Source: Allorhodopirellula heiligendammensis
GTDB taxonomy: Bacteria > Planctomycetota > Planctomycetia > Pirellulales > Pirellulaceae
NCBI RefSeq assembly: GCF_007860105.1
Contig: NZ_SJPU01000003.1
Location: 868,001 to 932,000 of the forward strand
Direction: 5' to 3'
DNA length: 64,000 nt
Of the stretch, positions 50,758 to 52,923 are shown in pieces. Each line of letters opens with the position of its first letter. Position 1 is the first letter of the stretch. A model generated the notes under the pieces. It did not search any database and was not told the origin of the DNA. It was given only the letters and a program-made list of their open reading frames with translations. The translations under genes were made by a program, and so were the position numbers.

Positions 50758-52362
50758 TTACGGCTGAGGCAGGTCGCTTTCTTCGCCGACTTCGTCTCCC
50801 GAGACGATCCGATCGATCGCATTGAGAATGGCGAAGATGGTGCTTTCGACGCTATCGGTGCTAACTCCGACCCCGCGATAGGTGCGTCCTTTGTGCTCGA
50901 CCTCCAAATTGACTTCCGCAATGGCGTCACGACCGAGCGTAGCGCTGCGGACGCGGAAGTCCTTGCAGACCAGCTCAATTCCTGTGATCTTCTCGACGGC
51001 CCAGAAGGCCGCGTCAATGGGACCATCGCCTTGCTCAACCTGTTCGGTGAACTCCTCGCCGCCGTGGCCCAGGGTCACACGCACTCGCGGCGTCTGGCTG
51101 CGAGAACTCGTGACTTCATAGTCCAGCAAACTCCATTGCGAAATCTCCGGTCCACTAATTTGTTGCTGGACCAGAGCCACGATGTCTCCGTCGTAGATCT
51201 CCTTCTTTTTGTCCGCGAGTACTTTGAAGCTATCGAAGACCTGCTGTAACTGCTCACCACTGATCGTGAAACCCAATTGTTTTGCCCGGTCGGCCAGAGC
51301 TGCCCGTCCACTGTGTTTGCCCAGCACCAGGTCGGTCTTCGCGAAGCCAACTTCCTCCGGTGACATGATCTCGTACGTGCTGCGTTCCTTCAGCATCCCG
51401 TCTTGATGGATTCCGGATTCGTGGGCAAATGCGTTGCGACCCACAATTGCTTTATTGCGTTGCACGTGGATGCCGGTCGTTTTACTGACCAAGCGACTGA
51501 CAGGGACGAGCCGACGAGAATTAATACCAGTAGTCAGGTTCAAGCAATCTCGCCGAGTTTGAATCGCCATCACGATCTCTTCCAAGGCAGCATTCCCAGC
51601 ACGCTCGCCAATCCCATTAATCGTGCATTCGATTTGGCCGGCTCCGCCGGCGACGGCCGCCAGCGAGTTGGCAACGGCCATTCCTAAGTCGTTGTGGCAA
51701 TGCGTGCTCAAGACCGCTTTGTCGATATTGGGAACACGATTGCGAAGCATCTGGAAACGCTCGAAGACCTCGGCGGGCGTGGCATAGCCCACCGTGTCGG
51801 GAACGTTGATTGTTGTGGCGCCAGCGTCAATTGCCGCCTCCACGACGCGGCACAAGAAATCGTGCTCGGTGCGGCAGGCGTCCTCAGGAGAGAACTCGAC
51901 GTCATCACAATGCGACACCGCTCGCTTGACTCCCGCGATCGCCCGCTCGACGATTTCATCGGTCGTCATCCGCAATTTAAATTGCCGGTGGATTGCGCTG
52001 GTAGCCAGGAACACATGGATGCGGCTGCTCGGGGCGACCTTGAGGGCCTCCCATGCGCGGTCGATGTCCTTTTCATTGCACCGCGCCAAACCGCAGATTG
52101 TGGCACCGCGAATCGTTGCGGCAATCTGCCGAACGGCTTCGAAATCACCTGGCGAGGCAATCGGGAAACCTGCCTCAATCACGTCGACGCCCATTTCGGC
52201 TAACGCCGCCGCCACCTCGAGTTTCTCCGCCAGGTTCATGCTCGCCCCGGGCGACTGCTCGCCATCGCGAAGCGTGGTGTCGAAAATGCGAATGTGACGC
52301 GGTTCGGTGGCGGGGGTTGGTTCGGCTGCGGCGGAATCCGCAACGGGCATGGGATCGGACAT
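50758..52362 (-). CDS. leuA: 2-isopropylmalate synthase
   Basis: 534 residues. N-terminal catalytic TIM barrel (IRIFDTTLRDGEQSPGASMN with the metal Asp and catalytic Arg, HCHNDLGMAVANSLAAVAGG with the metal His pair, and NGIGERAGNAALEE), then a linker and the LeuA allosteric dimerisation domain (GDGPIDAAFWAVEKITGI) that senses leucine. It joins acetyl-CoA and 2-ketoisovalerate, the first committed step to leucine. The ATG at 52362 has no Shine-Dalgarno; 64 bases upstream ends a strong terminator preceded by a leucine-rich leader peptide, so transcription is likely attenuated. Confidence 0.96.
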   Translation of the reverse strand: MSDPMPVADSAAAEPTPATEPRHIRIFDTTLRDGEQSPGASMNLAEKLEVAAALAEMGVDVIEAGFPIASPGDFEAVRQIAATIRGATICGLARCNEKDIDRAWEALKVAPSSRIHVFLATSAIHRQFKLRMTTDEIVERAIAGVKRAVSHCDDVEFSPEDACRTEHDFLCRVVEAAIDAGATTINVPDTVGYATPAEVFERFQMLRNRVPNIDKAVLSTHCHNDLGMAVANSLAAVAGGAGQIECTINGIGERAGNAALEEIVMAIQTRRDCLNLTTGINSRRLVPVSRLVSKTTGIHVQRNKAIVGRNAFAHESGIHQDGMLKERSTYEIMSPEEVGFAKTDLVLGKHSGRAALADRAKQLGFTISGEQLQQVFDSFKVLADKKKEIYDGDIVALVQQQISGPEISQWSLLDYEVTSSRSQTPRVRVTLGHGGEEFTEQVEQGDGPIDAAFWAVEKITGIELVCKDFRVRSATLGRDAIAEVNLEVEHKGRTYRGVGVSTDSVESTIFAILNAIDRIVSGDEVGEESDLPQP

Positions 52363-52425
52363 GGCAGTTCAAAAGGTGGTGAGAATGGAAAACGAGTGGC
52401 AAACGGTGGCGGACGACGAGCACAT

Positions 52426-52463
52426 AAAAAAAGCCCGAGACGCAATTTCAGGCGGCTCGGGCT
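52426..52463 (-). terminator. leuA attenuator terminator
   Basis: On the minus strand AGCCCGAG-C-CGC ... GCG-T-CTCGGGCT forms an 8 + 3 pair stem around an 8-base loop and is directly followed by T7. It lies between the leucine-rich leader peptide and leuA, on the leuA strand. A leader segment reading CTCGGTCT (about 52544-52537) can pair with AGCCCGAG in 7 of 8 positions, a possible antiterminator. Confidence 0.85.
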
Positions 52464-52504
52464 AATTCGTGTTCAGCTGTGTGCGGAAAAGCGACGCTCT
52501 ACGG

Positions 52505-52582
52505 TCACACGACGAATCGGCTCGAGCTGCCGGGAAGCAGACCGAGGTCGAGGAGTAGTCGTAGGGCTAGTCGATTTCGCAT
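52505..52582 (-). CDS. leuL: leucine-rich leader peptide of leuA
   Basis: 25 residues starting MRNRLALRLLLDLGLLP, with eight Leu in the first 16 codons (CTA three times, CTC three times, CTG, CTT) and three of the first four Leu codons being CTA, which is uncommon in a GC-rich genome. It stops at TGA 52507-52505, 41 bases before the terminator stem. The promoter-like TTGACG/TATTCT pair would put the transcript start at or just before this ATG, so it may be translated without a leader. Too short for family evidence; the case rests on leucine content plus position. Confidence 0.75.
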   Translation of the reverse strand: MRNRLALRLLLDLGLLPGSSSRFVV

Positions 52583-52923
52583 GTTTTGCAGAATAAACAG
52601 TGGTTCCGGTGCGCGTCAAGTGGTGCGTAAAACACCCCGCTTGCCACCCAAGACGGGCGATGACCTTACCGGGTTCGCATATGCACTGGTCCGCAACAAA
52701 GTTTTTTCACGCGGGGTTGCTTCTGGCTTGATTCAACGCGATAGCGGTTCACGCCGGACTAGGGTCGGCGAAGTCCTCCACGAGCAGGTTCTCCGCGGGG
52801 TGCATGGGAAACATGGTCCGGAAAAAATCCATTAAGCTGTTGGCCGAACGTAACCTTTGCGTAATGTCAGCTCACTGACATCCGCACCGACCATCGCCCA
52901 CTTTAACTGGTGCGCAGCCAATC
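52583..52923. other. intergenic region between leuA leader and sulfatase
   Basis: 341 bp. It holds the leuA promoter candidate at its left end. Near its right end is TGTCAG-CTCA-CTGACA (52865-52880), a 16-bp palindrome 44 bases before the sulfatase ATG that could be an operator. No gene is seen. Confidence 0.5.
52590..52619 (-). promoter_or_regulatory. promoter candidate of the leuA leader
   Basis: Minus strand: -35 TTGACG (52619-52614), 18-base spacer, -10 TATTCT (52595-52590). The predicted start falls next to the leader-peptide ATG at 52582. Confidence 0.6.

Follow-up and report, generated by a model that had tools for sequence, protein, structure and literature searches.

A predicted leucine attenuator with a putatively leaderless leader peptide before leuA in Allorhodopirellula heiligendammensis and related planctomycetes

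In Salmonella and Escherichia coli, the leu genes are preceded by a terminator and alternative hairpins that stand before leuA. The leu leader of S. typhimurium contains three rare CUA codons (PMC1183508). In Streptomyces lividans, leuL1 and leuL2, located before leuA and leuS, respectively, encode leaderless leader peptides, and while leuL2 is associated with a hairpin and a U stretch, leuL1 is described as having no typical terminator (PMC8079986). The actinobacterial LEU element also has a Leu-rich upstream ORF before leuA, but there the Leu codons pair with the Shine-Dalgarno box of leuA in a pseudoknot, and other parts of an attenuator are missing, according to PMC1262725. The same paper relates that mutations in the leuA leader of Streptomyces coelicolor were inconsistent with classical attenuation, a case that we take as a warning against reading mechanism from anatomy. 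Finally, rnTrpL/trpL of the alphaproteobacterium Sinorhizobium meliloti is an attenuator with a leaderless leader peptide that is concerned with tryptophan and trpE (PMC10117765).

Regarding the phylogenetic range of such systems, the authors of one survey write that, as far as they were aware, Proteobacteria and Actinobacteria were the only groups in which leader-peptide systems had been demonstrated until they presented a Firmicutes case of their own (PMC2965389), and the terms 'Planctomycet', 'Rhodopirellula' and 'leuA' are absent from its main text. A paper on leader genes that does name planctomycetes has reinitiation at short distances as its subject (PMC4833913); it cites a comparative survey of attenuation published in 2010 by Lopatovskaya and coworkers, known to us through this citation, which might list a planctomycete case. 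In the literature searched, which subscription papers largely fall outside, we found none that deals with leader-peptide attenuation in planctomycetes, and within that range the initial annotation's remark that it knew of no description of such a system in this phylum holds. Within the same literature, planctomycetes appear to be new to this kind of switch; the kind itself is already known, leaderless attenuator leaders included.

Here, we examine the region upstream of leuA in a window of 64,000 nucleotides from A. heiligendammensis (contig NZ_SJPU01000003.1). Like the enterobacterial leu attenuator, whose logic it follows, it has a short leader containing Leu codons, with the rare CUA as presumed control codons, and a terminator with predicted alternative hairpins before leuA, but it gives no match to the Rfam leu leader, is predicted to be leaderless, has its region 2 where the ORF ends, and belongs to a different phylum. 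It shares a Leu-rich leader, here putatively leaderless, with leuL1 and leuL2, a hairpin and U stretch with leuL2, and a Leu-rich ORF before leuA with the LEU element; unlike in these two actinobacterial leuA leaders, a terminator is present between the leader and leuA.

The leader locus and its proposed switch

The features of the locus, all read on the minus strand, are the following.

52590-52619, minus strand: leader promoter of the sigma-70 type, read from the sequence, with TTGACG at 52619-52614, an 18-base spacer and TATTCT at 52595-52590
52505-52582, minus strand: leader peptide ORF, MRNRLALRLLLDLGLLPGSSSRFVV, 25 codons plus TGA, with the ATG at 52582-52580 and the stop at 52507-52505
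52537-52546, minus strand: region 1, CTCGGTCTGC, able to sequester region 2; it includes the segment CTCGGTCT of the initial annotation
52512-52530, minus strand: region 2, GCAGCTCGAGCCGATTCGT, made up of the predicted antiterminator 5' arm CTCGAGCCGATTCGT (52526-52512) and an overlapping arm GCAGCTCGAG (52530-52521) that pairs with region 1
52456-52470, minus strand: region 3, ACGAATTAGCCCGAG, predicted antiterminator 3' arm, overlapping the 5' arm of the terminator
52426-52463, minus strand: intrinsic terminator, recognized from stem pairing and T run, with an 8-bp GC-rich stem of AGCCCGAG (52463-52456) and CTCGGGCT (52439-52432) followed by a T7 that reaches 52426
50758-52362, minus strand: ORF of 534 aa, presumably leuA, 2-isopropylmalate synthase, the gene thought to be controlled

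The identity of leuA is our assumption, taken from the name given in the initial annotation and from the DTTLRDGEQ motif. Eight of the 25 leader codons encode Leu, CTA being used for three of these, and seven bases separate the −10 element TATTCT from the leader ATG. The initial annotation had listed the promoter, the 25-codon ORF with its eight Leu codons, the stop and the T7 hairpin, and all of them are found at the places that it gave; 63 bases lie between the end of the terminator and the ATG of leuA (52362), where the annotation had 64. There are thus clustered Leu codons in a short leader before leuA, and an intrinsic terminator between this leader and the gene.

We consider it highly probable that leuA is controlled here by a ribosome-mediated transcription attenuator, built from four regions, whose signal is charged leucyl-tRNA. 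The initial annotation's reading of the locus as a leuA attenuator is supported by the layout, the CTA bias, the promoter spacing and the conserved 2:3 pairing. Sequence and comparison show the leader ORF and the terminator themselves, the bias towards CTA, the spacing of the promoter, and that 2:3 is conserved. From this we infer where the transcript begins, that the ribosome stalls, that antitermination follows and that leucine is the signal. If the reading is true, coupling between translation and termination operates in Pirellulaceae and their relatives.

In the proposed switch, RNA polymerase would start at or beside the A of the leader ATG, and the ribosome would then probably initiate directly at the 5' AUG of a leaderless transcript. 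When leucine is plentiful, the ribosome would reach the TGA and cover region 2, and the 3:4 terminator would end transcription before leuA. The leader and the terminator together very probably sense a shortage of leucine. Under such a shortage, the ribosome would stall on the Leu codons at positions 7-16, which include two of the three CTA, and a stall from codon 9 on would hide part or all of region 1. Region 2, at the end of the ORF, could then pair with region 3 before region 4 exists, and with 2:3 formed the terminator would be blocked and leuA transcribed. If, on the other hand, the leader is untranslated, or the ribosome is positioned as early as codon 5, the 1:2 hairpin would hold region 2 and the terminator would form.

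To represent the stalled states, the edge of the ribosome footprint was set 13 bases ahead and the free RNA was folded. With the RNA extending up to region 3, the 2:3 helix forms with A-site codons 7, 9, 10, 11, 13, 15 and 16, while a stall at codon 5 leads to the 1:2 hairpin. Without a ribosome, a hairpin between regions 1 and 2 is obtained in a slightly shifted register, and with the ribosome at the stop codon 2:3 is absent. When region 4 is included, A-site codon 15 is the only stall state tried that does not have the terminator as its equilibrium fold. Since the terminator is preferred at equilibrium in the full leader, antitermination would have to be kinetic, taking place during transcription.

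Conservation among relatives

Upstream regions of leuA were collected from a named set (the best 80 of 569 loci), from the family of the window (119 genomes searched, 104 matching, 103 upstreams used), and from phylum-wide genomes (294 searched, 115 matching, upstreams of part of them taken); the genus of the window is represented by 13 of 13 members. The leuA motif is present in 257 of the 259 collected loci. The strict scan that was applied looks for an ORF 7-50 codons long that reaches a density of at least five Leu in ten and is followed, 0-110 bases after its end, by a hairpin with a T run.

The scan is positive for 152 of the 257 upstreams, or for 133 of 232 once identical upstreams are removed, with near-copies still counted among the 232; the remaining 99 of the 232 fail. 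Divided by source, the positives amount to 77/103 in the family, 51/80 among the named loci, which overlap with the family, and 24/74 in the rest of the phylum, the last figure being made up of 16/16 from a further family of the class plus 8/58 from the remainder. As a control, 1,396,173 strand-bases (the window and the DNA around the relatives' leuA) were scanned. They contain 92 terminator-like sites, and the sole positive is the window's own leader, which had been left unmasked, while 0 of the other 91 sites is preceded by the leader layout. Among dinucleotide-shuffled leuA upstreams, 1 of 1285 is positive. The layout of leader and terminator before leuA is thus far beyond chance. Conservation in relatives had been set as a test in the initial annotation, and the Leu-rich leader with its hairpin is kept in all 13 loci of the genus and in 77 of 103 in the family. 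From sequence, the predicted leucine switch of leuA is found to be common to many planctomycetes.

Some of the scan-negative loci, e.g. L122, L224 and L233, hold a weaker Leu leader and terminator that fall below the strict cut, and inspection by eye at L015, L016, L018 and L028 (Pirellula-like) and at L040 revealed no Leu leader with a terminator. The eight Pirellula-like rows L014-L020 and L028, which stand together in the tree, have no Leu leader with a terminator according to the scan, and the attenuator has probably been lost in this clade. Two contigs from metagenome-assembled genomes, L047 and L048, are labelled 'Alphaproteobacteria bacterium' and 'bacterium', and they carry planctomycete-like leuA genes (70% and 69% identity to that of the window) with leaders; the former label is probably wrong.

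The leader ORFs have medians of 19 residues and 7 Leu. CTA accounts for 190 of the 706 Leu codons of the leaders (27%), compared to 43 of 3166 (1.4%) in leuA at the same 99 loci, corresponding to an odds ratio of 26.7 (p 7e-107), and CTA content was not among the criteria of the scan. Salmonella shares this preference, suggesting that the two have converged on a starvation-sensitive Leu codon. The gap between the stop and the hairpin is narrow, with a median of 35 bases and a 5-95% range of 26-48. Among the 133 leader ORFs, the stop is mostly TAG (96/133), often followed directly by GG (81/133, compared to 12/138 for the stops of leuA), which places the stop codon in or beside the antiterminator helix; across the class this predicted helix often sits on the leader stop, with UAGGGG pairing with CCCC of the terminator arm.

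We now consider the pairing that would exclude the terminator. In the window, CTCGAGCCGATTCGT and ACGAATTAGCCCGAG of regions 2 and 3 form 13 of 15 pairs, and 12-14 of 15 are formed in all 13 genus members, while CTCGGTCTGC and GCAGCTCGAG of regions 1 and 2 form 9 of 10 pairs, with 7-9 of 10 across the genus and the lower value of 7 in six of the 13 members. The terminator stem keeps 7-8 of its 8 pairs in the 13 rows. The calculated energies are −14.5 kcal/mol for 2:3, −19.1 for the terminator and −11.4 for the 1:2 hairpin. The initial annotation had proposed that a segment of the leader can pair with the first arm of the terminator, and such an alternative fold is predicted here too, but the arm that it named, CTCGGTCT, is probably wrong. 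Its pairing with AGCCCGAG has an energy of −7.2 kcal/mol, half as strong as CTCGAGCCGATTCGT:ACGAATTAGCCCGAG, and CTCGGTCT is kept only within region 1. The arm is more probably CTCGAGCCGATTCGT, at the 3' end of the ORF.

In the 13 genus rows, 87.7% of the cells of the 2:3 helix are paired, compared to 19-45% in slid controls, and the covariation score is 0.145 versus 0.110 for shuffled alignments, a value reached in 1 of 500 shuffles. Only two pairs have changed on both sides, however, a number also attained by 181 of 500 shuffles, and in its variety of pair types the helix does not exceed the shuffled sets (494/500). Class-wide, the length of the G run follows that of the C run, CCCC being the usual partner of TAGGGG and shorter C runs that of TAGGG (35 loci with both runs long and 30 with both short, against 2 and 18 mixed; p 2e-8 for the 85 of 133 loci that are usable, in a statistic that ignores kinship). 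Cognate 2:3 duplexes have an energy of −12.7 kcal/mol, compared to −11.1 for swapped ones, and are better in 64% of the comparisons (p 1.4e-8, again ignoring kinship). Beyond the GGG:CCC core, 1.78 contiguous pairs are observed versus 1.39 expected at the 88 of 133 loci that could be anchored, and for region 2 a total of 31 of 133 loci reach p≤0.05 against shuffles of the same region, with a mean z of −0.96, both values ignoring kinship; one of the six flanking positions is individually significant for covariation. The class-wide covariation thus provides modest evidence for 2:3 at the sequence level, and the case for the pairing rests mainly on the 13 genus rows and on the association of the G and C runs. 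A predicted antiterminator that would exclude the terminator is found conserved in the 13 genus members, and more weakly over the class.

Start of the leader and alternative explanations

A TTGAC promoter with a score of at least 12 precedes the leader at 119 of 132 loci (L219, which has a short upstream, was left out), compared to 2 of 105 control stretches taken further upstream. Between the −10 element and the start codon there are 2-9 bases in 43 loci, 16 in one and 20-113 in 75, the doubtful calls of the leaderless class being L049 and L211, for which there are other readings, and L013, measured to the second of two ATGs. Over the 132 loci, the promoter spacer is mostly 18 bases in the leaderless loci near the window and 17 in most of the leadered ones.

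The distances bear on the possibility that the attenuator is the same but its leader mRNA is not leaderless, transcription starting further upstream and translation being initiated at the ATG in the ordinary way. Ordinary initiation does serve the leader elsewhere, as the 75 of 119 strong-promoter loci with the −10 at least 20 bases before the start codon indicate. In the window and its genus, however, 6-7 bases of varying sequence separate the −10 from the ATG, and the distribution of distances is bimodal. Sequences resembling a Shine-Dalgarno box are below background before the leader start in the short-distance class, although it has to be said that they are not above background in the leadered class either. 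We therefore regard a leadered mRNA in the window as unlikely, and the leaderless start predicted from the promoter spacing as well supported. The initial annotation had proposed a leaderless leader, which the −10 spacing fits; it also called this unusual for an attenuator, which needs correcting in that leaderless attenuator leaders have already been reported. A quick leuA tree (FastTree) of 136 proteins, comprising 40 leaderless, 51 leadered, 37 without a leader and 8 unclear cases, gives at least 10 changes between leaderless and leadered, and when leaderless is set against all other rows, 9 changes are forced by well-supported branches. The same leader seems to be present with and without a 5' UTR in close relatives, which makes the effect of leaderlessness on a translation-coupled switch directly comparable.

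Two further explanations do without an attenuator of this kind. T-boxes and riboswitches both use a terminator before amino-acid genes, and a tRNA-binding T-box or a metabolite riboswitch could employ the present terminator with no stalling of ribosomes. Yet no Rfam family reaches threshold, the five matches listed up to an E of 10 include neither a T-box nor a leu leader, and the leader ORF occupies roughly half of the stretch from promoter to terminator, so that this explanation is very improbable indeed. Even at a permissive threshold, the window leader has no leu leader or T-box match, and in eight relatives searched with E up to 1 the leu leader is absent, the matches being three tRNAs and one below threshold. 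The hairpin could alternatively be a constitutive terminator that makes a small RNA, the Leu-rich ORF being incidental or encoding a small functional peptide. Leader and terminator would give an RNA of about 157 bases, and RNAs and peptides derived from an attenuator have been reported to act in trans in the case of trpL of Sinorhizobium (PMC10117765). On the other side, the peptides of different genera are little alike outside the Leu codons, while the Leu content, the use of CTA, the spacing between stop and hairpin and the 2:3 pairing are all kept, and the upstreams of ilvB, trpE and leuS in 24 relatives yielded no leader that we accepted as comparable. A small RNA or peptide as the function of the locus has accordingly only a slight probability.

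In these 24 relatives, the 30 ilvB loci contain 5 terminator-like sites, the ORFs preceding them never having more than 4 Leu/Ile/Val in ten, and the 30 trpE loci have no terminator-like sites. The 24 leuS loci contain 7 such sites, and two of the upstreams pass the Leu cut, L333 and L342, the latter being the leuS upstream of the window's own genome. These two apparent Leu leaders were rejected, as they are a shifted frame of a Cys-rich ORF, and the hairpin was taken as the terminator of that gene. Within the genus, the leuS upstreams L329, L331, L332, L333, L341 and L342 have a short Cys-rich ORF with CDPCC repeats that ends in CC(N/Y) and is followed by a strong terminator of its own.

A second element before leuA

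In addition to the predicted ribosome-mediated attenuator, a second conserved element is found before leuA at 40 loci of the relatives, 38 of which also have the first attenuator; it was not seen in the leuA upstream of the window. It consists of codons for Leu-(Leu/Val)-Leu and, five bases further on (24 aligned loci), a hairpin of the GCCGGTC..GACCGGC type, in which three of the six pairs show compensatory changes. An in-frame ATG lies upstream in 39 of the 40 loci, and 35 of the 37 with a promoter call belong to the leadered class. There were 42 candidates, from which the unrelated rows L068 and L177 were dropped; the loci include L023, L025, L027, L036, L044, L052, L054, L057, L058, L085 and 30 more.

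A model of the element, with 150 candidates scored per genome, matches strongly once per genome in 12 genomes out of 12, at leuA as judged by position (E 5e-11 to 7e-6), the 12 including those that supplied sequences for the model. Three middling matches (E 7e-5 to 4e-4) in two of the 12 genomes lie inside long ORFs that by eye do not resemble leucine genes. It is important to note that the hairpin was itself a criterion of the search, so its perfect pairing is partly due to selection; what is useful as evidence is that pairs change in a compensatory way and that no second strong match appears.

The second element may be a further leucine checkpoint that acts on translation, which is a guess. 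Whether planctomycetes have a lineage of leucine attenuators of their own, with repeated switches between leaderless and leadered forms, an antiterminator arm on or beside the stop, and in many leadered cases an added second element without a terminator that would give two serial checkpoints, seems to us evenly balanced. The second element is often located inside a short ORF that reads like SRAxL(L/V)LPAPxxGR, and it lies about 110-310 bases before the DTTLRDG motif of leuA.
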